Shown here: piece after piece, positions 19,646-34,348 of the stretch
How the letters are laid out: the number at the start of each line of letters is the position of its first letter
Position numbering within the stretch: the stretch's first letter is position 1
Assembly (NCBI GenBank): GCA_025055115.1
Contig: JANWYJ010000052.1
Span: 1-34,348 of the forward strand
Reading direction: 5' to 3'
From: Gemmata sp.
GTDB lineage: Bacteria; Planctomycetota; Planctomycetia; Gemmatales; Gemmataceae
Length of the DNA: 34,348 nt
Notes under the pieces: model-generated
What the model was told of the DNA's origin: nothing
What the model saw: only the letters and a program-made list of their open reading frames with translations
Database searches by the model: none
Position numbers and translations under genes: made by a program

Positions 19646-19875
19646 CGCCTCATCCCCACGGAATGGTGCAGCAGCCTGCCGCCGGTGTGTTCATCCTGAA
19701 TCGACTTGAGAAATTCTGCCATTTCCTCGCAGGAGGGCAACACACCCGGCGCCACAAAAGCCAGCGTTGTCAGAGTCGCCGCCAGCGCCGCTGGAGCAAT
19801 TGTGACAATCGGTGTATGCCGAAGAACAATCCTGCCCGGAACCTTGCTATTTCCCGTTACTCCTCCATCCGCCAA
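19630..19875 (-). CDS. Doubtful small membrane ORF between the binding protein and lipoprotein genes
   Basis: 81 residues if it starts at TTG 19875, which lies inside the end of the 898-residue gene. The only support is a plausible GGAA 7 bases upstream, a hydrophobic stretch TIAPAALAATLTTLAFVAPG, and a 16-base overlap with the next start, as in coupled genes. No homolog is recognised. If it is not real, the 211 bp between 19646 and 19856 hold nothing else I can see. Confidence 0.3.
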   Translation of the reverse strand: MADGGVTGNSKVPGRIVLRHTPIVTIAPAALAATLTTLAFVAPGVLPSCEEMAEFLKSIQDEHTGGRLLHHSVGMRRWPGG

Positions 19876-22553
19876 TAGGCGATTCCTTGGAAAAGCGTTG
19901 TGGGGTTGAGAACACGTGGACTGACGGGCTGATCGGTCAGGTCGGTGTAGATTTTGACGCGTTTGTGAACTAATAAGTGCCGGTCGAGCTGCCAGAGGGG
20001 AATGAAAGGCACCACTTCATTAAAAAGTCTGTGAACTTCTCCGGCTTTGGCCGCCAATTGCTGAAAATCCCGATAGCCCCGCAAGTCGCGTAGGAGGGCC
20101 TCCAAGCGTGTATCGGCTTCCTCAGTCGATTGTTTGCCAAAACCGAGCCAATTCCGTCCACCGCGGTCCGTGGCCGTAGAATCGAGGAAGGCTCCCAAAC
20201 CGAGAGGGTACCAATCGTCAGGATATTCAAACGGTACATACGCCAGGTCGTAACGGTGTTCCTCTTCGACGCGTAAAATCAGATCGCGTGGGGGTACCGC
20301 TTCGAGTTGAATAGTCAGTTTGCGCCCGGGCAGGTCGTTGAAGAGACTTTCGACCTGGGTTTTGATCATCTGGCAGGCTTGGGCGGCGAGGGCATCATTG
20401 GCCGGGTACGAGAGCGTCACGTTGTCGCGGGTGCTGTTGTCAGCCAGATACGCTTGCAGCCGGGTGAAAGCCCCGTCGCGATTGAGCAAGGGTATCGGTG
20501 TGCCGCTGGGACCTTTGGGGGTAGCCCATGATTTGGGTGGAAATGGCCCGGTCAGCGCGGTGTGGAATTTCGTTTTGGCACGAAACACCGCGTCGAGGAT
20601 GGCCTCACGATCAATAGCCAAGGAAATTCCTTGGCGGAGGAGGCTATTCTGCAAATACGGTCGGCGGTGGTTGATCGCCAGCAGGTAGATCCGACGATTG
20701 GTTTCAGCCGTGTAGGCTTGGACGATATTTGTGAGATTGGCCGCGGGATTGAGGAAACGATCCAACTCCGCGGTCGGAACATCGGTGAGGATGTGGAGGC
20801 GACCTTGTTGGAACCATTCCACAAGGTTTGGAACTTTGGCCGTTTCGACGAAGCGAATTTCGCGAATGTGGGGCAGATCGGCCCGGTCGCGCCAGCGGCT
20901 GTAGAGCGGATTGTCGATGAAGACCATTTCCCGGGGCGTATTGCCTATGGCTTTCGAGTTGCTGTAGAGGCGGTAAGGTCCAGTCCCAAAAGGACTTTCG
21001 GCAAAGACGGCGTCGTCGGGGGTTTTGCGGTTGGCGGTCAGCCACCGTGCTGGCAGAAGTTTGAAGGTCAACAGTGCTCGCGGATCGGGGTGGCCCTGGC
21101 GGAACGTGACCCGCAGCGTGGTCGTATCCAGGGGTGTGGGGAGTTCATCCATCCAGGACAGCATGTAGCCGCTCCAGGTGTGCTGATATTTCTGCATCCA
21201 TTTGACGGTTTCGACCACATCGTGCGACTCAAACCCGAATCGGCCGGAGGCATCCAGTTCGAACGACCGCAAAGCGATCTCGCGGCCGCCCGGAATGACC
21301 CGGGGCATAATCAGCGCCGCCCCAGGCCGGTAGTGCAACCCACCGTGACGATCGGGCACTTCCGTGAGCAAGCCTTCAAATAACAGCTCCACGGCTTGTT
21401 TTTCACTGTCGAGCCGTGCCGTCATGGGCGACATCCACACGGGATACTCGCGAACCCCCACCGAGAGCGTTTGGTAGCCGCTTTTGAGTTCGCGGAGCAT
21501 CTCCCGCAGCTCAGGAAGGGTGGGATCGAGGGCTGCCGCCCGATCGAGGGCCCGGGCCGCCCCTGCCAGATCGCCGGCTTTTTTTCTGGTCTGTGCGGTG
21601 CGGAAAGCGTCCTGAGCGAGACTGGTGAGCTTTTTGCGCATCTCCTTGATGGCTTCCCCCCCACCGCCGGGATAACGGGCTTCCAATTCATCGAGAATTT
21701 CCCGGGCCTTCACCGGCGCAGTGGGTTGGTCGCTGGCCAACAGCCGTTGCGCCTCCAGGATACGAGCAGCAGCCACTTCCGAGGCCACCCCGGCATCCCG
21801 CGGATAAGCCCGCAACAAACGCTGGCCGACCTCGCGCACAGTGGGCCAATCGTTGGCGGCCAGGGCCGTTTTTAACTGTAGTAAACGCACCTCCCGCAGA
21901 CGGTCGGCCAGAGGTTGGCGAATCTCGTCCCACCCTTTGCCTTTGCGAATGAGCCGTTCGCGGGAAAAATCGTGGAAGCGCAAAGCGGCCGCCAAAAGCT
22001 TCTCAGCCGCGGTCAGTTGCTCGGCCACCGTCAGCCCCTCTGGCCCCGCAGTTGTTCCGAAAGGCTTGTAGGCCAACAACTTATTCGCTTCGGTAACGAC
22101 AATTTCCTCAAAATACTCGACCCGCCGAACGATACTGCTATTGACCAACGCCGAACCCGTTTCCTGGCCTTCGGCATTCAGCAGCGTCACCGTCATTTCG
22201 GGCAGGGCATTGCCACGAGCGTATTCGATAGGCCGAATCGGCCCTTTGCCGCCTTTGGTATAAAGCCGGTCGAAGGGAACGGTATGCTTTTGATAAAGTT
22301 CCTTGAGGGTGGGATGTTTCGCCTCTTGGGCCGCATACAGTAATTCATCGAGGCGTAAGTGTGGCGGTGTGCCGGCGACCGCTCCGGGATTGTTCGAATC
22401 CTCGTCGTCGACGATGATCCGTTTCTTGACTCCGCCGCGGGGGTCCTCCTCTTCGGGCGGAAACTGACCGAAAGCCCCAATGGTCAAGGCCATGAGGCCC
22501 CCCAACCCCGCCGCAAGCCGCGACCAACCACACCAACGCCAAGCGGTTCGCAT
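19857..22553 (-). CDS. Extracellular solute-binding protein family 5-like, with a large N-terminal extension
   Basis: 898 residues from ATG 22553, with GAGGA upstream. A signal peptide (about 1-29) is followed by an acidic linker and a helical region to about 340, including a TPR-like AGDLAGAARALDRAAALDPTLPELREML stretch (core AARALDRAAALDPTLPEL). The SBP_bac_5 (DppA/OppA) fold then begins, with VELLFEGLLTEV, FGTGPYRLYS and LRQGISLAIDREAILDAVF as landmarks (each motif is typical of the family). Usual members are 500-600 residues and feed peptides to an ABC transporter, but no oppBCDF genes are nearby. It may bind peptides or signal molecules in the periplasm without transport. Confidence 0.82.
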   Translation of the reverse strand: MRTAWRWCGWSRLAAGLGGLMALTIGAFGQFPPEEEDPRGGVKKRIIVDDEDSNNPGAVAGTPPHLRLDELLYAAQEAKHPTLKELYQKHTVPFDRLYTKGGKGPIRPIEYARGNALPEMTVTLLNAEGQETGSALVNSSIVRRVEYFEEIVVTEANKLLAYKPFGTTAGPEGLTVAEQLTAAEKLLAAALRFHDFSRERLIRKGKGWDEIRQPLADRLREVRLLQLKTALAANDWPTVREVGQRLLRAYPRDAGVASEVAAARILEAQRLLASDQPTAPVKAREILDELEARYPGGGGEAIKEMRKKLTSLAQDAFRTAQTRKKAGDLAGAARALDRAAALDPTLPELREMLRELKSGYQTLSVGVREYPVWMSPMTARLDSEKQAVELLFEGLLTEVPDRHGGLHYRPGAALIMPRVIPGGREIALRSFELDASGRFGFESHDVVETVKWMQKYQHTWSGYMLSWMDELPTPLDTTTLRVTFRQGHPDPRALLTFKLLPARWLTANRKTPDDAVFAESPFGTGPYRLYSNSKAIGNTPREMVFIDNPLYSRWRDRADLPHIREIRFVETAKVPNLVEWFQQGRLHILTDVPTAELDRFLNPAANLTNIVQAYTAETNRRIYLLAINHRRPYLQNSLLRQGISLAIDREAILDAVFRAKTKFHTALTGPFPPKSWATPKGPSGTPIPLLNRDGAFTRLQAYLADNSTRDNVTLSYPANDALAAQACQMIKTQVESLFNDLPGRKLTIQLEAVPPRDLILRVEEEHRYDLAYVPFEYPDDWYPLGLGAFLDSTATDRGGRNWLGFGKQSTEEADTRLEALLRDLRGYRDFQQLAAKAGEVHRLFNEVVPFIPLWQLDRHLLVHKRVKIYTDLTDQPVSPRVLNPTTLFQGIAYWRMEE

Positions 22554-23731: not shown

Positions 23732-26233
23732 TTATTTCTTCTCCAGGTTGAGCAGGGCCTTAATCTCGCTTTCCAAATCGGTAATGTGGGCCAAGCTGAG
23801 CGGTTCGGTCGTCTTGGACTTCGCTTGCTCCAACTGCTTGGCCAGTTGGGCCAACGTCAGTCGGGCGACCGCCCGCAGCTCACTGGTCGGACGCGACCCA
23901 CTGCCGCCCAAGCTCGGCACATTCCCCGGGGCCGAGGTGGCTCCGGAAGCCGGGGGTTGAAACTCGGCTTTGAGAAGATCGAGATAGGCCCGTTGCAACT
24001 GCCGCCGGAGCGGATCAATCTTGGGCGAATCCGTTTTCAGTTCGGCGAAAAGACCGTCTTGGAGGTCGGTCACTAACTCCACCACAGTATAGGCTTTCTC
24101 AGGGGTCAACAATTCGGCATCGGCGAGGCGAGCTAGGCGATCAGGGGCCAACAACGATGCCAGCAATTGGCGTTGTTGAGTGGCGATGCCGGCCGCCGCC
24201 CCGGTGTACTTGAATTGATTGATGATCCCAGGATTGAGCAACTTCGTGGGGGTCGTGAACGCGTGGTCGAGGAGGAATTTCACTGCTTCCTTTTGTTTGT
24301 CTTTGGGGACCCGCACGAAGGCCTCCCCACCGCGGCCCCCGAGCGTGCGGTATTCGACCACCCCGCCGACTTGCTTAGCCACCGCTGCGAACCACCGCCC
24401 CCGATGGCTGAGAATTTCCCCGTAAACGTCTTCCAAAAGCGAGAAGTCTTCGCCTTTTTCAGTGGTCGCCGGGAGCAAATGATCCATCACACGATCCAAA
24501 TTCTTCAGGCCCAGCGCTGTGGCTTGGACAGGATCGTTGCCGATGTTTTCCGTGAGCACGGTGGGGTCGACACGCGATGGGCCATCTTCACCCCCGAAGC
24601 GGAGGAAGGGATTGTCGATCTGCTTGGCCGCCCATTCATCAAGCGTTTTCTTTTCCTCCTCGGGAGTTTTGGCATTGGGAATCGGTTTATAGCCCCACTC
24701 GATCGCGAAGAAATCATACGGCCCTAACCCCGGAATGAGCTTTTTCGGGTCGATCTTATCTTCCGGTTGGGCGACGTAGTTGTAGCGGCCATACGACATG
24801 ATCGACGCGACATTCCCATACTTGGCGACAAACTGCGGATCACGCAGTTGACTGATGCTATAGGCCTGGCTGGCCCGGTGGTTGTGACGCAAACCGAGGG
24901 TATGCCCGACTTCATGAGCAGCCACATAGCGGAGCAATTCGCCCGTCAGTTCATCGGGCAGGGGGAATTTGCGAGCGCGCGGGTCTTGCGCTGAACACTG
25001 GACAAAATACCACATCTGAACCAGCTTGACAATATCGTGCCAGAAGATGATGTGGGCCGAAATGACCTCCCCGGAACGGGGATCGTGAACGTGTGGTCCC
25101 ATCGCGTTGGCCACAGGCTCGGCCACCCAGCGAATGACGTTATAACGGGCATCCTCCGGGTCCCAATTCGGGTCTTCAGCACGGCTGGGCGCGTCTTTGC
25201 AGATGATCGCGTTTTTGAAACCCGCTTTCTCAAACGCCGGTTGCCAATCCTCGACCCCCTTTTTGAGATAGGGTCGCCACTTCTCGGGAATCTCGTTGGC
25301 CAGGTAGAACACAATCGGTTTGACCGGTTCACTGACCTCCGCTTTCGGGTCTTTCTTCTCCAACCGGTAACGGTTGATGTATTGCTTGTTGACCGCCCAT
25401 TGTTTCGGGTGAGCGTAATCGGTGAACTCCTCGGTGAAGTACCCGACGCGGGGGTCAAAGAGCCGGCCCATCATCGGCGTTTCGGGGAGAATCACCAAAC
25501 TTTGATGAATGACCGCGGTGGCACTGCGTGCCGCCGGACCACTGCCGAAGGCCGGTGGCAGGCCCGGCCCCCCACCGCCACCGCCACCGCCGCGGAATGT
25601 GACCGTGGCCCGTGATTCGATATTCGTCGGGAACGCCCGAACCTCGTTCAAATATGAGCGGCTGGGGTCCGGCGTGCCGCCGCCACCGCCCGCCGCCCGA
25701 TTGAGCGGCAAATCCGGTAGACCACTGATGAGAATGTCGGAAACGTTGATCACCGCGGAGCGGTCTTTGCCTTCACATTCCACATTGAACGCCGCAACAA
25801 TCGAATCCGTAGCGGCCGCCTCCACCGAGGCTTGCACCGCCTTGCCATCAGAACGCTTGGCAAAGCCCACTTTCCACACATAAATCTTGTTGCCGCGACG
25901 CTCAAACTTCAGGACCGTATGTCCGAGCGTCGCCCCGCCCCAGCTACTGCCGCCAGGCCCTTTGGCCACTTCGGCATACCACAAAAACAGCCGCCCTAAC
26001 GCCTCTTGAGGAATCTCGAAATACACCTTGTCCTCATGACGGTGGACCGCAAATACCCCCGGCTGTGTTTTGAAGTCTTTGGTGATAACATCATCGTACT
26101 TTTTCAGCTCGCCAGCTTTGGATAATCCTTTGGGTAAAATCGGTTGTTGGCCAACGAGTGGCGAAGTGGCAAGCGATACGAGAGTGGCTAGCGCGGCGAC
26201 CCAGCCAACGCTCCACAACACACAAGTGCGCAT
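23732..26233 (-). CDS. Secreted zinc metalloprotease, DUF5117/DUF4953 family
   Basis: 833 residues from ATG 26233, with AGGTG upstream. A signal peptide (about 1-30) precedes a DUF5118/5117-like region (VYFEIPQEALGRLFLW...; VGYFTEEFTDYAHP). The metzincin-type HEVGHTLGLRH is at 440-450, followed by a Met-turn-like ASIMSYGRYNY. This HExxHxxGxxH pattern binds zinc, so the protein is probably an active peptidase. Two poly-Gly tracts (eight Gly in a row at the longer) sit before the catalytic region and look like linkers. A C-terminal domain of about 200 residues is helical and Leu-rich. Family members are common in planctomycetes and bacteroidetes and are exported, but substrates are unknown. Confidence 0.9.
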   Translation of the reverse strand: MRTCVLWSVGWVAALATLVSLATSPLVGQQPILPKGLSKAGELKKYDDVITKDFKTQPGVFAVHRHEDKVYFEIPQEALGRLFLWYAEVAKGPGGSSWGGATLGHTVLKFERRGNKIYVWKVGFAKRSDGKAVQASVEAAATDSIVAAFNVECEGKDRSAVINVSDILISGLPDLPLNRAAGGGGGTPDPSRSYLNEVRAFPTNIESRATVTFRGGGGGGGGPGLPPAFGSGPAARSATAVIHQSLVILPETPMMGRLFDPRVGYFTEEFTDYAHPKQWAVNKQYINRYRLEKKDPKAEVSEPVKPIVFYLANEIPEKWRPYLKKGVEDWQPAFEKAGFKNAIICKDAPSRAEDPNWDPEDARYNVIRWVAEPVANAMGPHVHDPRSGEVISAHIIFWHDIVKLVQMWYFVQCSAQDPRARKFPLPDELTGELLRYVAAHEVGHTLGLRHNHRASQAYSISQLRDPQFVAKYGNVASIMSYGRYNYVAQPEDKIDPKKLIPGLGPYDFFAIEWGYKPIPNAKTPEEEKKTLDEWAAKQIDNPFLRFGGEDGPSRVDPTVLTENIGNDPVQATALGLKNLDRVMDHLLPATTEKGEDFSLLEDVYGEILSHRGRWFAAVAKQVGGVVEYRTLGGRGGEAFVRVPKDKQKEAVKFLLDHAFTTPTKLLNPGIINQFKYTGAAAGIATQQRQLLASLLAPDRLARLADAELLTPEKAYTVVELVTDLQDGLFAELKTDSPKIDPLRRQLQRAYLDLLKAEFQPPASGATSAPGNVPSLGGSGSRPTSELRAVARLTLAQLAKQLEQAKSKTTEPLSLAHITDLESEIKALLNLEKK

Positions 26234-26279
26234 GAGAACACCTGATCGGGGTGAACAACAAGGTGGGATATCTGGGTAT

Positions 26280-26285
26280 ATTGTA
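26280..26285 (-). promoter_or_regulatory. Possible -10 box for the metalloprotease gene
   Basis: On the minus strand TACAAT (26285 to 26280) matches five of six bases of TATAAT and lies 47 bp before the start codon. No good -35 is seen 17 bp further up, so this is weak. The rest of the divergent gap 26234-26477 has a TTGACA at 26289-26294 on the + strand, without a partner box. Confidence 0.3.
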
Positions 26286-26477
26286 GGGTTGACAGCCGGA
26301 AAAAGCGATTGGTGCGGTGGAAAAGTCTTCCCCCTTTCCTCGTTACAATCGGAACGAAGCGAATTGCTCGGGTTCTTGCAGCCCTGGTGGGGTCAGCCGC
26401 AACCAAGCCGTTGCGCGGTGCGGTTCGATAACTTCATCAGCAGGTGTTGTCTGCTTGTTGTCGAGGAGTTGGCCGGC

Positions 26478-27353
26478 ATGACGCCGATGTACATATTGGC
26501 CTTTTGCGCTGCAGGTGCCGACATTTCCGCGAATGGTTACTCCGCACCGGCACTTCCCTCTCCCCCGTATGTATCGGACAAGCGCTGGCCGCCGATTTGG
26601 CAACCGGTGCAGCGCATGCGGGCCAAGGTGGCGGAACTCGCTCTGCCCGGCCGCGGACAACCTTCGCCGACCGGTTCGTATCTGTGGCAGCCATCGTATT
26701 GTGAAGATGCGCTTCTGCGCGGACCAGCACGGCCCTACACCCCCCAACCGGGCGACATTGTCATGAGTGCTGATGGTTCGCGCTTTTGGTTAGCGATGCA
26801 TCGTTTGGCCGGTACCAGTCACCCCACCCATTCGATGATCGTTTTCCGGATGCCCGATGGGAAAATGGGTATTCTCGAAGGCGGCCCCCACGACACCCTC
26901 AAATGCCGCGTGCTGGAGGCCCTTCCCCATATGTTGAGCTACGAACAGGAGGGTCGGGTGTGGGTGCGGCGTCGCGCCGAACCGCTGACCGCGGAACAAT
27001 CCGCGCGTCTCACGGAATTCGCAATGGCGGTCAACGAGCGCAATTTCGCCTTGGGCCGCCTCGCCGGGCAGCTTACGCCGTTTCGTTCACGTGGGCCACT
27101 TCGCACCGCCTTGGTCGGCAAGCCCCAGGGTTTGGATCGCCGCGGCTACTTCTGTAGCGAATTGGTGTGCGAAGCCTGCGTCTACGCAGGACTTCTCGAC
27201 CCGGAAACGACCCGCCCTTCAGCCACCTATCCGCGTGATCTGTTCATGGATCGTTCTCCCAACTGGTACCTCAACAAACACCTCAAACTCGCCCCCGCGT
27301 GGGACCCGCCGGCACGCTGGACCAGTTGGAACGTACCTGAGAACAATCCGTAA
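26478..27353 (+). CDS. Permuted NlpC/P60-type (YiiX/YaeF-like) cysteine amidase
   Basis: 291 residues from ATG 26478, with GAGGAG 9 bases upstream; the open frame extends further up but without support. A hydrophobic start (MYILAFCAAGADISA) may be a signal peptide. The permuted papain-like order is visible: PGDIVMS (91-97), then His118 in HPTHSMIVF, Glu134 in ILEGG, and late Cys226 in YFCSELVCEA. This fits circularly permuted NlpC/P60 enzymes, which cut peptide or amide bonds in cell wall or lipid-linked substrates. Its last codons (Glu-Asn-Asn-Pro) and stop lie inside a repeated sequence shared with the region downstream. Confidence 0.82.
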   Translation: MTPMYILAFCAAGADISANGYSAPALPSPPYVSDKRWPPIWQPVQRMRAKVAELALPGRGQPSPTGSYLWQPSYCEDALLRGPARPYTPQPGDIVMSADGSRFWLAMHRLAGTSHPTHSMIVFRMPDGKMGILEGGPHDTLKCRVLEALPHMLSYEQEGRVWVRRRAEPLTAEQSARLTEFAMAVNERNFALGRLAGQLTPFRSRGPLRTALVGKPQGLDRRGYFCSELVCEACVYAGLLDPETTRPSATYPRDLFMDRSPNWYLNKHLKLAPAWDPPARWTSWNVPENNP

Positions 27354-27729: not shown

Positions 27730-30339
27730 ATGAAGACGTGTGTGAGGTTGTTTGCTTGGGCGTGCGTGGTGTTGCTCGCCATCGGATTCCAACCGCTCTG
27801 GGCGGCCGAGCCTCTCGGCGACAACGGGAAACCCCAAGGACCTTATGCCGTTGTCATTGGCGTGGGGTCATTCACCGATCCGGCGATTTCGCCACGCCCC
27901 AGCGCCGAGGCCGATGCCAAAGCCCTTCATGCGATGCTCACCGATCCCAAATATCTTGGCATCCCCGCTCATCGCGCCACTCTCCTTCTGGCCGCACAGG
28001 CCACTCGTGAGGCCATCATCAAAGCCATAGATACGGCCATCACCGCCACCGGGCCGGATGACCTGTTACTGATTGCTTTTTTTGGCCGCGGAACCTCGAC
28101 CGCGGACAAACCCTGCTTCTTCACGGCCGAAAGCACCGTCAAAGAACGGGCAAAAACCGCCTTGGTGGTCAGCGACCTCGAAGCCGCCTTCAAAAAGCTG
28201 AAAAAGCAACACGTCGCGATGTTCATGGATGTGCAATACAAAGGCGGCATCGACGCCGGAGGCGAAAAGATCGTCGAACCGAACATTCTCGAATACGCCA
28301 AACTGCTGTTTGGGGAAAAAGAGGACGACATCGCCCTGTCTCCGCCGAATCGGTTCATCGTCTACAGTCACCTGCCCAACCAAGATGCACTGACCATCGG
28401 CCAACACGGCCTGTTCTACACGGTGCTGTCCGCCGGCCTGGGCGGCAAAGCGGATCAGCCACCGTACAACGAAGGTTATGAATCGGATGGTCTGATTACG
28501 GTCAAAGAATTGGTTTCGTACCTGGAGAAGGAAATTCCCAACGCCGCTCGTACACATGGCAAAACCGATAAGGAGAAGGAAATTGCGCCGTTTATGGCCG
28601 GCGGGCTGACCAGTAAGTTCTGGATCACACGCAACCCCGCCGAAACCGACAAGATTCGCAAGCGGCTCGAAGCGATCGACACGCTGGCGCAATCGGGGCA
28701 ACTGCCCGCAGAATTGGCCAAGGAAGCGCACAGTCTCCTTGCCCGGATGCCCAAACTCCAATGGCAGCAGAACTTGCGCAAGGAGTATCAGAAACTTGCG
28801 GACGGAGGTTCGATTGACCGGCTAGAAACTGTTCGCAAAGGACTCCTCGAAAGCCTCAAGCTCTCCCCCGACGACGCCGAACGCTACGTCCGGCAAGTCT
28901 TGCCCGCAGTGCGACAAGTGGCCACGGAATACATTCGCCCCGTCTCGCATGGCGAACTGGTGGCCTATGGCCTGCGCGGGCTGTATCAAGAAGCCGATGA
29001 ACCGCTCCCGGCCGATCTGGCCGATGCCCTCAAATCGCCCAAGGATTTAGCCGACACCCGCCTCATTGAGTTGCTGCAAGAAGCTCGCCTGCGTCTGGGC
29101 AAACGCGAAGACCTCGACGGCGACAAAGCCGCCGACATCACCCTGCGGGCCATGCTCCAGGGCCTCAACGACCCCCACACCCTTTATTTGGACCGCGAAG
29201 AATGGCTTAGTTTCTCCAAGCAGCTCGAAGGCCGCTTCCCGGGCGTGGGGATCATCATTCGTCGCGATGCGGTGAAAGATTGCCTGTTGGTGGTCAGCCC
29301 AATCCTCAATAGCCCAGCGTTCAAGGCCGGGATTCGAGCCGGCGATCATATCACCGAAGTCCGCCTCGAAGTGGACAAACTCGGCAACCCACTGCCCGCC
29401 GACGCCCAACGGGTGTTCTCCACCAAGGGCATGAAGACCGATGATGCAGTCAAACTCATCACCGGCAAAGAAAAAACTCCGGTGACGCTCATCGTCGAAC
29501 GCGACGGAGAAAAACAACCGAAAGAATTCCGCATCCTCCGCGATTTCGTCATGGTCGAAACCATTCATGGCGTTGTCCGCAAAGACAACATGGAATGGTC
29601 GTATTATCTCGATCCCGAGTTGAAAATCGGTTACATCCGCATTGAAAGCTTCCTCTACACCATCGGCAATCAGGGAACTTACCCCGATTTGAAACGGGCC
29701 TTGGATTCCCTGAAGAAAACCGGCTTGAATGCCCTGATTCTCGACGTACGCAATAACGGCGGTGGTTCGCTGGCCGCGGTCATCGAGATGTGCGCCCTGT
29801 TCGTGGGTCGCGAACCGATCGTCAAGACCCGCTACCGCGATCAAACTGAGAACACCACCTACAGCGGCCGCATCGACGGCGATAAAAGCTACCCGATGGT
29901 CGTTCTCATCAACGGCTATAGCGCCAGTGCCAGCGAAATTCTCGCTGCCTGCCTGCAAGACCACGGCCGGGCTACCATCGTGGGTGAACGGAGCTTCGGC
30001 AAAGGAAGCGTCCAAGGGGTGAAAGAGTACAAACCGACAACCGGCCGGCTGAAATACACCGAAGGTCGGTACTATCCTCCCAGCGGTCGCAACATCGATA
30101 AAGTCGCCGCCGAACAAGACCCCGAGCTGAAAAAGCGCGACGAATGGGGTGTCAAACCTGATCCAGGCTTCGAGGTCAAACTCACCCGGGAAGAGCGGGT
30201 GGAGTGGAACGAATATGTCCGCGACCTGGCGGTGATTCCCCCCGCGGGGCAAAAACCGCCGACTGTCGATCTGAGCAAAGATAAACAGCTGCAAAAGGCC
30301 TACGAACACCTCAAGGAACTGGTGAAGAACAAACGCTAG
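27730..30339 (+). CDS. Exported S41 (C-terminal processing) protease with an N-terminal caspase-like domain
   Basis: 869 residues from ATG 27730, with GAGGA upstream; a TTG directly before it is less likely. Signal peptide about 1-26. Residues about 38-265 follow the caspase/peptidase C14 pattern (PYAVVIGVGSF, then DLLLIAFFGRG, then HVAMFMDVQYKGG). However, the catalytic His of the GHG motif is Arg120 and the Cys of DAC is Gln169, so this domain should be inactive. A helical stretch to about 480 is followed by a PDZ domain (GVGIII...AGIRAGDHITEV, about 505-600) and a complete S41 site: Ser733 in SASASE and Lys758 in FGKG, 25 apart as in CtpA. It probably cleaves periplasmic proteins from their C-terminal ends. 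Confidence 0.9.
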   Translation: MKTCVRLFAWACVVLLAIGFQPLWAAEPLGDNGKPQGPYAVVIGVGSFTDPAISPRPSAEADAKALHAMLTDPKYLGIPAHRATLLLAAQATREAIIKAIDTAITATGPDDLLLIAFFGRGTSTADKPCFFTAESTVKERAKTALVVSDLEAAFKKLKKQHVAMFMDVQYKGGIDAGGEKIVEPNILEYAKLLFGEKEDDIALSPPNRFIVYSHLPNQDALTIGQHGLFYTVLSAGLGGKADQPPYNEGYESDGLITVKELVSYLEKEIPNAARTHGKTDKEKEIAPFMAGGLTSKFWITRNPAETDKIRKRLEAIDTLAQSGQLPAELAKEAHSLLARMPKLQWQQNLRKEYQKLADGGSIDRLETVRKGLLESLKLSPDDAERYVRQVLPAVRQVATEYIRPVSHGELVAYGLRGLYQEADEPLPADLADALKSPKDLADTRLIELLQEARLRLGKREDLDGDKAADITLRAMLQGLNDPHTLYLDREEWLSFSKQLEGRFPGVGIIIRRDAVKDCLLVVSPILNSPAFKAGIRAGDHITEVRLEVDKLGNPLPADAQRVFSTKGMKTDDAVKLITGKEKTPVTLIVERDGEKQPKEFRILRDFVMVETIHGVVRKDNMEWSYYLDPELKIGYIRIESFLYTIGNQGTYPDLKRALDSLKKTGLNALILDVRNNGGGSLAAVIEMCALFVGREPIVKTRYRDQTENTTYSGRIDGDKSYPMVVLINGYSASASEILAACLQDHGRATIVGERSFGKGSVQGVKEYKPTTGRLKYTEGRYYPPSGRNIDKVAAEQDPELKKRDEWGVKPDPGFEVKLTREERVEWNEYVRDLAVIPPAGQKPPTVDLSKDKQLQKAYEHLKELVKNKR

Positions 30340-30374: not shown

Positions 30375-30463
30375 CCGCCTTGTGCTTCGCTTCCTCTGGC
30401 GTCTGAACCAACTTGCGGTTCGCACAAACGCCCCATCGCCCAAGAGCGGTTTCTCAACGGAGA

Positions 30464-31591
30464 ATGCAGGTGATACGCGGGGTTTGGGTGATTGTCGCTT
30501 CCGGTTTGAGTCTCGTTGTCATGCCGGCCCAAGAAATGTCGGATAAAGCCGAAGTGTCGGATAAAGCCGAAACCCTGACCCGCGAACGGGCCTCAGCCTT
30601 CGCCCAACTGGCTCTCCGCGCTGTCCAGAAAGAATACCCGAACAAGCTGGGCCACGTCCTTCTCAACGCCAACGATGCGAAAACCCCCAAAGCCCTGCAC
30701 CCCGCCTTTTACGGTTGCTACGATTGGCATTCGGCCGTTCATGGCCACTGGATGCTCGTTCGGGTGCTGCGCACCTACCCCGACTTACCAGAAGCCGAAC
30801 AAATCCGCACGGTCCTCAATGAGCATCTGACGGCCGAGAACATCCGGGCGGAGGTCGCCTACTTTCAGCGGCCCGAAGCCCAATCGTTCGAACGGCCCTA
30901 CGGTTGGTCATGGCTTTTGAAACTGGCCGAGGAGCTATCCACCTGGGACGACAAGCAAGCCCAGAAGTGGTTTGCGAACGTGCGCCCCCTGGCTGAACTG
31001 ATCGCCAAGCGCTACCAGGACTATTTCCCCAAACAAACCTACCCCATCCGCGCCGGCGTCCATTCCAACACCGCCTTCGGACTGACCTTCGCCTACGATT
31101 ACGCCAAAACCACCGGCCACAAAAAGCTGCAAGAATTGATTGAAGAACGCGCGAAAACCTACTTTGGCCACGATACCGACGCCCCAGCGCGGTGGGAACC
31201 CGACGGTGCCGACTTCCTCTCCCCCAGTTTATGCGAAGCCGATCTGATGCGCCGCGTCCTGCCGGCCAATGAATTCCGGGAATGGTTCCACAAATATCTG
31301 CCCGGTGCGGCCAAGGGCGAACCAGCCACGCTGTTCACCCCAGCCACCGTCACCGATCGCCGCGATCCGCAATTGGTTCATCTCGATGGACTCAACCTCA
31401 GTCGGGCCTGGTGTCTCCGCGGTATCCTCACCGCACTGCCCCCCGATGATCCCGCCCGAGCCGCCTTAACCGCCGCAGCCGTCCGTCATGCCCAAGCGGG
31501 GCTGAAGCATGTCGCCAGCGGCGATTATGCCGGCGAACATTGGTTGGCCTCATTCGCGGTCTGGATGCTTTCCGTCCCTGCACCAAAATGA
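30464..31591 (+). CDS. DUF2891-family secreted protein
   Basis: 375 residues from ATG 30464; a GTG at 30470 is better spaced from GGAG and is an equally good start. The N-terminus (VIRGVWVIVASGLSLVVMPAQ) is a signal peptide. The DUF2891 pattern is visible: HPAFYGCYDWHSAVHGHWMLVR, FERPYGWSWLLKLAEEL and HSNTAFGLTFAYDYA (shown here as short core motifs YDWHSAVHGHW, RPYGWSWLL, HSNTAFGL), then HLDGLNLSRAWCL. The fold is probably an alpha/alpha barrel like glycan-processing enzymes, but no activity is assigned to the family. An in-frame 18-bp duplication (SDKAEV twice) extends the region after the signal peptide. Confidence 0.82.
   Translation: MQVIRGVWVIVASGLSLVVMPAQEMSDKAEVSDKAETLTRERASAFAQLALRAVQKEYPNKLGHVLLNANDAKTPKALHPAFYGCYDWHSAVHGHWMLVRVLRTYPDLPEAEQIRTVLNEHLTAENIRAEVAYFQRPEAQSFERPYGWSWLLKLAEELSTWDDKQAQKWFANVRPLAELIAKRYQDYFPKQTYPIRAGVHSNTAFGLTFAYDYAKTTGHKKLQELIEERAKTYFGHDTDAPARWEPDGADFLSPSLCEADLMRRVLPANEFREWFHKYLPGAAKGEPATLFTPATVTDRRDPQLVHLDGLNLSRAWCLRGILTALPPDDPARAALTAAAVRHAQAGLKHVASGDYAGEHWLASFAVWMLSVPAPK
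30537..30572 (+). repeat. 18-bp in-frame tandem duplication in the DUF2891 gene
   Basis: TGTCGGATAAAGCCGAAG at 30537-30554 is followed by the same 18 bases with a final A at 30555-30572. It adds six residues and keeps the frame, in the linker after the signal peptide. Confidence 0.85.
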
Positions 31592-32024
31592 CAGAACAGA
31601 ATGGTGACGAGAAAGAGGTTGTCGCGAACCCCCTGCCGCGTACCCCCCCGACGGTGGCTCGACTTCCGCATGCATGCTCTTGCGCGTTTCTTCCGCCGCA
31701 CGCCGTGACTGGCCTTCCCTCTACGTGTGTCGTGGGCACACCAAAAGTTTGTGGTCTGTGCGCAACGCCCCTTGATGGCGCATCGAAGATTTTCGTCTGG
31801 CAACCGATGCGTGGTGTTTTTTTTCAATCGCATGAAAAAACGGCCTGAGAATTTGGTGACGATTTTCCGCCGTAACGTGGTTTCTGTGCTAGGACAAAGA
31901 GTGGTGAGATGTGTTTGTGCGCATCGTGAGATGCGGTATTTCATCGTCGGCTAGGGAGGGTCGATGAGACTTTTTTGCGATCGGTCGGCACAAAGGCTGA
32001 CGCTCGCGTGTGGTGTGTATCATC
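31592..32024. other. Intergenic region before the kinase gene
   Basis: 433 bp with no convincing gene. It holds an AT-rich inverted pair near 31815-31841 (a T run and an A run around CAATCGCATG) that could act as a weak terminator, and a small hairpin (CGCATC 31920-31925, GATGCG 31930-31935). The kinase promoter was not recognised. Confidence 0.45.
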
Positions 32025-34348
32025 GTGCCCAAAACCGCAGTCGTTGCCGTCCCTGAAACCCTCCCTCGCCCCATCGCGGCCGCTGTGGCCGAAGCCGCAA
32101 TGGCTGCCCCTGGAGCCGAAGCTCCGGCCACCTATCGGCTGCCGGTGGCTGTCGAACACACGCCCCCGCCAGCACATCGCCATTTGGCCACCACCCCACT
32201 GCCCGCTGCCCCGATCAGCCCTTCCGTCTCGGAATGGAATAGCCACGATACCTGCGATATGGGGGGGCACCACCGCCATCCGCGTCCTGGTGAGACGATT
32301 TTAGGGTTCAAACTCATCCGTGAGTTGGGCCGGGGGGCGTTTGCCCGGGTTTATCTGGCCGAACAAGCTACACTGGCCAACCGGCAGGTCGCTCTCAAGA
32401 TCACGCATCGACCAACCCGTGAAGCCGAACGGCTTGCCCGCCTGCAGCATACCAACATCGTCCCTATTTACTCCATTCACGATGATGGCCAAACGCAAGT
32501 CATTTGTATGCCGTATCTGGGGCGCGTGACCATCGCCGATTTGATTCGCGCCTATCGGATCGATCAGCCTGCTCCGTCGTGCGGGAAGAAAAGCACCTCC
32601 GCCCGCGCGGCCCGAACAACATCCTTGACCTCGAAGAGTACAGCCTCCAAAGTCAGCACCACTGACTCGAAAAATCAAGCCACCGTCACTCCCCTCTGGA
32701 CCTGGGATTCGACCGAACCGCCCCCGATTATTGGCGATCCAATCGCCACGTTGCAGGTTCTGGCGCAATTGGCCGCCGGTCTGAGCCACGCCCACCAACG
32801 CGGAATCCTCCACCTCGACATCAAACCCGCCAACGTGCTTTTGGCCGATACGGGCGAGCCGATGCTGCTGGATTTCAACTTGTCGTTTGATACCGCCAAC
32901 CCCCATCGGGACCATGTGGGCGGAACAATGCCGTATATGGCCATCGAACAACTCCGCGACATGCGATGCCGCGGCCAAGCGGTCATTGATGAGCGAACCG
33001 ACCTCTACGCCTTGGGTGTGATGGCCTACGAAATGCTGACGGGGGAAGTTCCCTTCCCGACTCCCACCAACAGCATTCGCAACATCGACGCCATGATTGC
33101 CTTACGGCAGAAAGGACCGCCATCGATCCGCGCACGCAACCCGCGCGTAACTCCGGCCGTAGAAGCGATTGTGCGAAAACTGATGGCCCCTGAACCCGGT
33201 GAACGGTATCAAACTGCCGAGCAACTCCGTATCGACATTGAACGCCATCTCCACCATCGGCCGTTGAAGTATGCCCGAGAGGCCTCGCTGCGCGAACGGT
33301 TCTGGAAGTGGCGGCGCCGCAACCCCTGCCTGCCATTGCAACTGGCTGCCCTCGCAATGCTTCTCGTGACTTTCGGATTAGGCGGCACGGCCATGAATCA
33401 TGCCGCGACCAATGCCCGCCACCAAGCGATCCAAAAAGCACAACAAACCCAAGCGGTCCTCGACACACTCCGGCTAGACCTGACTCTGCTCAATAACACC
33501 CAAACCCGCGCCCGCGGTATCCGTAACGCCACCGAATTGCTAGCTGCTTACGGACTGCCCGAAGATCGCCATTGGCAAAAACGATCCATCGTCCGGCAAC
33601 TTCCCGAAGCTGAACAACGAGAGTTAATCGGCCATTTGGGTGAGGTGATGATTCTGTTAGCCCAAGCCAAATGGCAGCAGGCCCAGGGAGGCTCTGGCAC
33701 CCAGCGGGCCACTTGGCTGGCGGAAGCCTGGCAGCTGAACGTGGCAGCTCAAGACTGCTTCGACGCCGTCTCACGGCCCCCCGTGCTCGATCAGCAAGCG
33801 TTGCAGCTGGCCCCCCTTGTCGGCGAAAATTTCCAAGCCACCCCGGAAGAACAGCCGACCCACGACGATCCACGCTCCCGGTTCTTGGAAGCGGTGCTGC
33901 TCATCAACCGCGGATACTACGCCAGCGCCATTCCGCTTCTGGAACGGGTGATTGCCCAACAACCACAGCATGGAGCGGGCCAGTTCTTGCTGGCCTACTG
34001 CCGCCAACAGCTTGGTCAATACGAACGAGCGCTGGAACGCTACGACATCGCAAGCACCCTTCTGCCCAACGATCCGCGACCGGGCTACCAACGCGGTATC
34101 ATCTACTCCCAAACCCGCAAGCACGACTTGGCGGTGGCTGAATTCACCAAAGCCCTCACAATCGATGCTGAATTCGCCGATGCTTACCTCCGTCGGGCTT
34201 CGGAGGAGTATCGTCTCGCCCTCTGTGAACTATCGCCCCAAGGCAACAACCAGCGGAGACAAGAACTGCTGCGAACAGCCGAAGCCGACTTGACGCGAGC
34301 GCTGGATTTGGGAGCGCCGTCGGTCTCCGTCCGATTTCTCCGGGCCAA
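32025..34348 (+). CDS. Transmembrane Ser/Thr protein kinase with TPR-rich C-terminal part (partial)
   Basis: The frame is open from 32001 to the window edge; GTG 32025 is the assumed start, with weak support (GTG 32010/32013 and ATG 32100 are alternatives), giving 774 codons so far. From GTG 32025: glycine loop LGRGAFARV (101-109), Lys125 in VALK, an about 55-residue Ser/Thr/Ala/Lys-rich insert near 195-245, catalytic loop HLDIKPAN (263-270), DFN (283-285) in place of DFG, and GGTMPYMAIEQL. The canonical Arg of HRD is Leu here, while the Asp and Lys remain. A membrane helix (LPLQLAALAMLLVTFGLGG) follows the kinase, then a periplasmic or cytoplasmic helical region with TPR-like repeats, such as GYYASAIPLLERVIAQQPQH. 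It probably phosphorylates proteins in a signalling cascade; the 3' end is missing. Confidence 0.88.
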   Translation, partial: MPKTAVVAVPETLPRPIAAAVAEAAMAAPGAEAPATYRLPVAVEHTPPPAHRHLATTPLPAAPISPSVSEWNSHDTCDMGGHHRHPRPGETILGFKLIRELGRGAFARVYLAEQATLANRQVALKITHRPTREAERLARLQHTNIVPIYSIHDDGQTQVICMPYLGRVTIADLIRAYRIDQPAPSCGKKSTSARAARTTSLTSKSTASKVSTTDSKNQATVTPLWTWDSTEPPPIIGDPIATLQVLAQLAAGLSHAHQRGILHLDIKPANVLLADTGEPMLLDFNLSFDTANPHRDHVGGTMPYMAIEQLRDMRCRGQAVIDERTDLYALGVMAYEMLTGEVPFPTPTNSIRNIDAMIALRQKGPPSIRARNPRVTPAVEAIVRKLMAPEPGERYQTAEQLRIDIERHLHHRPLKYAREASLRERFWKWRRRNPCLPLQLAALAMLLVTFGLGGTAMNHAATNARHQAIQKAQQTQAVLDTLRLDLTLLNNTQTRARGIRNATELLAAYGLPEDRHWQKRSIVRQLPEAEQRELIGHLGEVMILLAQAKWQQAQGGSGTQRATWLAEAWQLNVAAQDCFDAVSRPPVLDQQALQLAPLVGENFQATPEEQPTHDDPRSRFLEAVLLINRGYYASAIPLLERVIAQQPQHGAGQFLLAYCRQQLGQYERALERYDIASTLLPNDPRPGYQRGIIYSQTRKHDLAVAEFTKALTIDAEFADAYLRRASEEYRLALCELSPQGNNQRRQELLRTAEADLTRALDLGAPSVSVRFLRA

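Follow-up and report, generated by a model that had tools for sequence, protein, structure and literature searches.

A caspase domain without its catalytic dyad, fused to a predicted exported carboxy-terminal processing protease in Gemmata and related planctomycetes

RESULTS AND DISCUSSION

A caspase-like domain and a processing protease on one chain

The window analysed here, a stretch of 34,348 nucleotides from Gemmata sp. (GenBank assembly GCA_025055115.1, contig JANWYJ010000052.1, positions 1 to 34,348 of the forward strand), carries on its plus strand a gene (27730-30339; ATG at 27730, stop codon ending at 30339) whose product of 869 amino acids joins a pseudo-caspase domain to a carboxy-terminal processing protease (CTP). 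A predicted Sec-type export signal (27730-27807, approximately residues 1-26) is followed, all on the same strand, by the pseudo-caspase domain (27811-28632, approximately residues 28-301), a helical linker (28636-29160, approximately residues 303-477) that is common to the fusions and was delimited by alignment and modelled secondary structure, and the CTP core composed of PDZ and S41 domains (29128-30141, residues 467-804). The Pfam model C14 matched residues 39-242 with 28.2 bits (cut-off 21.4) and S41 matched residues 632-797 with 158.9 bits, while the NCBIfam model TIGR00225 (prc), which delimits the CTP core, scored 272.5 bits (cut-off 218.6). In the window protein the NCBIfam caspase model NF047832 (55.6 versus 140) and the models PDZ_2 and PDZ_6 (22.2 and 19.3 versus 27) remained below their cut-offs. 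Among 28 named fusions, C14 was found in 19 and PDZ_6 in 27 at E<=0.01, and the PDZ domain is also backed by structural matches of the whole core (see below).

For comparison, open reading frames (ORFs) were collected from 169 loci if they matched, at E<=1e-30, a profile termed A1 that comprises the caspase domain and the linker, S41 not being part of it. Removal of repeats left 110 rows, of which 101 came from the order of the window, taken to be Gemmatales, two from a further family (f5) and seven from caspase-only homologues. These rows represent ORFs and not genomes, as eight genomes have at least two profile matches, one of them (G431) owing to a split gene; three of the order rows are without a dyad column (one of them, L153_4251, through a shifted frame) and six are without S41 columns. 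The CTP nucleophile Ser733 (29926-29928) and the general base Lys758 (30001-30003) were present in 95/95 covering order rows and the third CTP residue, Gln762 (30013-30015), in 92/95, with spacings of 25 and 29 residues that equal those of S300/K325/Q329 in the title of a Helicobacter pylori CtpA mutant entry. A loose heuristic for export detected, ahead of strand 1, a hydrophobic 10-mer in 98/99 rows and an AxA-like site after the hydrophobic stretch in 88/99. The sequence-only reading of this DNA had described the same ORF with the same coordinates and residues as an exported protease with intact C-terminal PDZ and S41 domains; this description holds, in that the fusion protein is predicted to be an exported, live-looking CTP with an intact Ser-Lys pair.

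Predicted structure

The same reading had assigned a caspase fold to the N-terminal part, an assignment that was put to a structure prediction. An AlphaFold2 model of residues 28-307, computed from an alignment of the window protein and 27 named relatives with 91 to 36% identity, reached a mean pLDDT (predicted local distance difference test) of 90.8 and a pTM (predicted template modelling score) of 0.90, and placed the first strand at residues 39-44 and a helix from residue 59 onward. A Foldseek search of the PDB returned 124 matches at E<=0.001, and the best 50 of these 124 were caspases, metacaspases, MALT1 and the bacterial structure 3bij. With VIA-align, the model was superimposed on Arabidopsis metacaspase 4 (6w8r) over 216 residues with a Z score of 20.2 and a root mean square deviation (rmsd) of 2.8, on MALT1 with a Z score of 19.4 and on caspase-7 (1k86) with a Z score of 18.2. 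The model thus confirmed that residues 28-301, approximately, are predicted to adopt a caspase fold. In a second model, which covers the mature chain (pLDDT 88.9), the caspase domain, helices at approximately residues 303-477 and the PDZ-S41 core follow one another in this order. Its CTP core resembled CtpA from H. pylori (Z 32.6) and LbcA-bound CtpA from Pseudomonas aeruginosa (Z 32.3), and was closer to active CtpB (Z 30.9, rmsd 4.7) than to resting CtpB (Z 22.6, rmsd 8.3), although the better fit to active CtpB may be only a preference of the predictor.

Loss of the caspase dyad

Orthocaspases possess the p20 domain only and no p10, which sets them apart from metacaspases. When the fusions were aligned with dyad-keeping caspases of the phylum, residue 120 fell into the column of the catalytic His and residue 169 into that of the catalytic Cys, and when a profile was matched to metacaspases of yeast and Candida, the column of residue 120 stood opposite the His of 'SGHGG'. 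In the window protein these positions are occupied by Arg120 (28087-28089) and Gln169 (28234-28236), as the sequence-only reading had stated. Of the order rows, 98 cover both positions, and in none of them was either catalytic residue found in its own column. In place of the His stand Gln (39), Arg (37), Glu (9), Asn (7), Ser (5) or Ala (1), and the Cys is replaced by Asn (43), Gln (17), His (16), Ala (9), Asp (7), Ser (4), Thr (1) or Tyr (1). The otherwise clean picture of a dead dyad is blurred by two rows (L095 and L102) in which a Cys immediately precedes the catalytic column. In f5 the His is missing from its column in all three fusions, although in one of them (G039) the next position holds a His, and the Cys is kept in one (G034), so that the ancestor of the architecture may have been a caspase still possessing its Cys. 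No relative with both His and Cys was thus found among the 98 order rows and the three f5 fusions.

What did not stand up was the idea that the substituted residues themselves are conserved and form a substrate clamp. Arg120 and Gln169 occur together in only 17 of the 98 order rows, the commonest pair being Gln/Asn (29/98). When 260 positions were ranked by entropy over 93 complete rows, residue 120 came 140th and residue 169 came 183rd. Since both belong to the less constrained part of the domain, a clamp built on them is unlikely, and Arg120/Gln169 as a conserved clamp is ruled out by their drift.

Distribution of the fusion

At E<=1e-30 profile A1 matched 91 of the 102 genomes of the order, corresponding to 69/71 genomes of good quality and 41/44 genera. 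In 86 of the 91 matching genomes at least one row (93 rows altogether) could be read that included the two dyad positions together with Ser and Lys of S41; in the other five (G020, G030, G431, G441 and G460) the gene is broken, split or cut by a contig end. In G431 (locus L153) the split fusion gene occupies two frames, of 303 and 702 amino acids. A class-level search with A1 (397 genomes, E<=1e-20) returned 98 genomes, namely the 91 from the two families of the order, three from f5, in which the fusion is present in 3/3 genomes, and four others. As A1 was built with an f5 row (L027), the strong A1 score of G034 arises by construction; a C14 search of the fusion L027 at 0.001 gave no match. 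In three of the four other genomes the A1 match stops inside the caspase part. One of the four (G397) has two caspase ORFs that were read (L032 and L165), both of which keep His and Cys, and a search of L032 for S41 gave no match.

Among 392 genomes drawn from the phylum, a full-profile match was seen, among the matches listed, only in the window's own genome, and the remaining phylum matches listed reach no further than profile position 352, apart from a linker match (353-435) in G000. This genome also contains a second caspase-like ORF (L221:191-1942, minus strand, contig C65, 583 amino acids), which by eye is likewise without the dyad, the residues in question being Arg (in 'ATRG') and Glu (in 'DVES'). 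The titles of the 27 named records comprise 25 planctomycetes, one Bacteroidales and one 'Bacterium', and the planctomycete titles name Gemmata, Gemmataceae, Fimbriiglobus and Planctomycetia, and also one Singulisphaera and one Isosphaera.

Fusions of an intact caspase with S41 were not detected, as none of 33 caspase ORFs outside the fusions matched S41, a limited look confined to loci L032-L060 and L200 (profile E<=1e-15) in which four ORFs are cut by the 3' and five by the 5' edge of their locus, while phylum matches beyond these loci and those in G533, G679 and G711 lie outside it. His and Cys are both kept in 28 of these 33 ORFs. In a tree of 51 S41 domains, which sampled 27 of the 101 rows from the order (18 at random), three f5 fusions and 21 proteins without a caspase domain, the order fusions and the f5 fusions each formed a supported group, and the joining of the two was without support.

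Three paralogs composed of linker and S41 but without the caspase domain (L201, L202 and L203) are nested inside the fusion clade of the order, with support of 100/98 for the 27-row group and 92/74 for the nearest grouping; the branch is long and two of the three have an unusual composition. The two that were read, L201 and L203, carry Thr at the position of the nucleophile, and L203 in addition has Arg for Lys, so both are likely dead CTPs as judged from these residues. Since the nucleophile is lost where the caspase domain is missing, the domain and CTP catalysis were lost together in L201 and L203, perhaps in one event.

Purifying selection and conserved positions of the dead domain

The dead domain is under purifying selection. 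The ratio of nonsynonymous to synonymous substitution rates (dN/dS; Nei-Gojobori) of the pseudo-caspase ranged from 0 to 0.126 in eight close pairs, in four of which dS in the caspase part is about 1 or more, and was lower than that of the CTP core in four. Decay of a single gene is therefore excluded, the order-wide A1 match and the dead dyad in 98 rows pointing the same way.

In contrast to the drifting dyad positions, Gly44, Asp62, Gly121, Gly249 and Asp167 ranked 1st, 2nd, 3rd, 5th and 7th in conservation. Asp62 (27913-27915; 98/98 order rows), which stands opposite the Asp of the NDA motif in metacaspases, and Asp167 (28228-28230; 97/98), two residues before the Cys column, occupy the first and second acidic S1-pocket positions of orthocaspases, and we take them to correspond to Asp95 and Asp211 of TbMC2. 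The two Asp residues that accommodate basic substrate residues in TbMC2 are described as being kept in pseudo-orthocaspases (PMC6426788).

Conservation extends to charged residues that appear to be specific to the fusion. Position 56, where the window protein has Arg56 (27895-27897) after strand 1 and before helix 1, holds Arg in 90, Lys in seven, Asn in one and Gln in one of 99 order rows, as against Leu in 28, Gly in two, Ile in one, Ala in one and a gap in one of the 33 other phylum caspase ORFs. From this position between strand and helix and from the caspase-3 sequence, we presume Arg56 to be the equivalent of caspase-3 Arg64. The latter has been located where helix 1 begins, following strand 1 (PMC4626109). 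Arg140 was found in 94/98 order rows and Glu251 in 96/99, and Arg56, Arg140, Lys142, Glu251, Lys278 and Lys283 do not vary among the 28 named fusions and are seldom or never found in the 33 phylum caspases; in the entropy ranking Arg140, Arg56, Lys283 and Lys142 came 18th, 26th, 41st and 54th. Throughout the order an acidic pocket is thus retained and a basic residue 56 added, and this residue could bind an acidic group or plug the pocket.

Relation to known systems

Pseudo-orthocaspases joined to a protease have been described before, in the form of a class in which a caspase domain with a QC dyad is joined to a trypsin-like domain whose triad is intact (PMC6426788). Like the CTP fusion, these proteins unite a dyad-less orthocaspase and a catalytically complete serine protease on one chain. 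However, in the published fusions the protease is trypsin-like and N-terminal, a C-terminal DUF4384 is a feature and the Cys is kept while only the His is lost, whereas in the fusions described here the protease is of the S41/PDZ type and C-terminal and, within the order, both residues are lost (PMC6426788). The cyanobacterial YS and YN pseudo-orthocaspases likewise lack the dyad and keep both S1-pocket Asp residues, but carry Tyr/Ser or Tyr/Asn where the CTP fusions combine Gln, Arg, Glu, Asn, Ser or Ala with Asn, Gln, His, Ala, Asp, Ser, Thr or Tyr (PMC6426788). Planctomycetes were already marked in 2012 by a low conservation of the caspase dyad (64%; PMC3501461). A published CTP-pseudo-caspase fusion was not found in the literature searched, which covers the field in part and makes this a weak negative; the main text of PMC6426788 does not mention S41, PDZ, tail-specific or Planctomycet, that of PMC3501461 does not mention S41, PDZ or Gemmata, and the S41 hit in PMC7475262 belongs to a DOI.

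On the side of the protease, the PDZ-S41 core is like that of H. pylori CtpA, P. aeruginosa CtpA and CtpB, and the catalytic spacing is like that of the H. pylori enzyme. However, the solved CtpA and CtpB chains possess no caspase domain, and their activity depends on a conformational switch or on a separate adaptor (PMC12749690; PMC11021448). Prc-NlpI and CtpA-LbcA offer a parallel to what we propose for the pseudo-caspase, namely a non-catalytic module serving a CTP, but NlpI and LbcA are separate proteins, LbcA being composed of an adaptor domain and a TPR superhelix, and not a fused caspase fold (PMC12749690; PMC11021448). Similarly, cFLIP (PMC8195603) and Trypanosoma brucei MC4 (PMC6426788) are dead-dyad caspase folds tied to the control of a protease pathway, although they work inside caspase or metacaspase systems and not on a serine protease of the same chain.

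A docking or regulatory module and its alternatives

Since selection keeps the domain attached to the protease, a role of the dead caspase in guiding or controlling the live enzyme is probable. We put the probability at about one half that the pseudo-caspase is a non-catalytic docking or regulatory module built into an exported CTP. The separate adaptors NlpI and LbcA bring substrate to CTPs or activate them, and it is because CTPs are controlled in this way that a docking or switching role suggests itself (PMC12749690; PMC11021448). Such a role is favoured by the caspase fold, the retention of the fusion across the order, the purifying selection on a domain whose dyad is dead, the intact Ser-Lys pair of the CTP and the kept S1-pocket positions with the basic residue 56; a further hint comes from the paralogs L201 and L203, which have neither the caspase domain nor the CTP nucleophile. 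The module would then be the covalent counterpart of these adaptors: the pseudo-caspase would bind a ligand or the CTP itself and, once bound, would bring substrate to the PDZ-S41 unit or switch it. In one possible mechanism the old S1 groove would accommodate a partner, or the protein's own Arg56 would fill the groove and leave a binding surface that acts by shape only. In a more specific and rather unlikely version, residue 56 would fill the Asp62/Asp167 pocket as a mimic of a P1 Arg, and an exported ligand or peptide would displace this plug and turn on the CTP via the PDZ domain; if true, a serine protease would have a receptor built from a caspase within its own chain, and a whole bacterial order would have retained it.

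Several observations weigh against a docking or regulatory role. The mature-protein model has a pTM of 0.73, which makes any interdomain contact putative, and the dN/dS of the dead domain exceeds that of the CTP core in four of the eight pairs. Some of the charged positions are looser across the order (Lys142 in 81/97, Lys278 in 83/93 and Lys283 in 85/97 rows). In f5 Asp167 is present in 3/3 fusions but Arg56 and Asp62 in only 1/3 each and Arg140 in 0/3, so that the pocket argument holds for the order and not for the whole architecture. Moreover, three fusions (L143, L147 and L152) have Ala or Val in place of Gln762 and nevertheless retain the dead domain, which argues against a strict link of the domain to CTP catalysis; each of the three genomes holds a second copy of the fusion. 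Finally, a comparison of the flanks of the fusion loci, which in the genus loci L002-L017 extended to the two immediate neighbours, revealed no conserved operon partner shared with the window.

Caspase folds pair in many caspases, and the domain might instead be structural and ligand-free, joining the protomers of a CTP oligomer with the linker setting their spacing. This is possible but on the whole unlikely: the pseudo-caspase lies, in the model, N-terminal to the CTP core, and H. pylori CtpA forms hexamers whose dimers are made via the N-terminal domain (PMC12749690), yet an assembly role leaves unexplained why S1-pocket positions are nearly fixed beside drifting dyad positions, and the metacaspases, which are among the nearest structures, are described as monomeric (PMC12914765). 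Drift at the dyad would fit a passive relic, in which an accidental fusion lost its dyad and was kept since its loss would destabilise the export or the fold of the CTP, and this would also suit the caspase-less paralogs inside the fusion clade and the domain's weaker constraint, relative to the CTP core, in half of the pairs. However, we regard a relic as doubtful in view of dN/dS values of at most 0.126, the A1 match in nearly all good genomes, the fixed charged residues not found in other caspases and the fact that both caspase-less paralogs read are also without the CTP nucleophile. The fusion-specific basic residues could alternatively point to some other chemistry or to a sensor of a small ligand in the old groove, for example of an ion or an acidic peptide bound via Arg56, Arg140 and Lys142, whose placement in the groove is putative; as no new pair is conserved at positions 120 and 169, where even Gln/Asn reaches just 29 of 98 rows, this seems improbable.

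Whichever part the module plays, a dead bacterial caspase is here tied, in nearly every good genome of the order, to a live-looking protease that can be assayed, and this covalent tie renders its role directly testable. A regulatory pseudo-caspase would moreover represent a possible mode of control in cis for CTPs, beside the described movement of the PDZ domain and the separate adaptors (PMC12749690; PMC11021448).

Genes surrounding the fusion

The ORF directly upstream of the fusion (26070-27353, plus strand) gave no Pfam match at 0.001 and has a counterpart (89%) only in the nearest relative, G017; by eye, its product presumably resembles permuted NlpC/P60 proteins of the YiiX type. Downstream lies a gene for a DUF2891 protein (30413-31591, plus strand), which is also found near the fusion in L002 and L104. 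Of the immediate neighbours, the former is thus common to the nearest relative only, and DUF2891 to the nearest relative and one more locus, a comparison limited to these two genes in the genus loci L002-L017 because their flanks measure <=1.5 kb. A Ser/Thr kinase-TPR protein (32010-34346, plus strand) runs off the end of the window; 19 loci, including two that are not fusion loci, hold ORFs that match it weakly (26-37%), which is what so widespread a domain would lead one to expect. On the minus strand, Pfam identified a Met-zincin protein (DUF4953/DUF5117/DUF5118; 23732-26233), another likely protease near the fusion, and an extracellular solute-binding protein of family 5 (SBP_bac_5; 19857-22553). 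Among upstream ORFs on the same strand as the fusion, an aminotransferase was present in 26 and DUF3754 in 17 of 79 loci, which differ in flank length and for which Pfam was run on the L121 members of these families only; we read these surroundings as a housekeeping neighbourhood.

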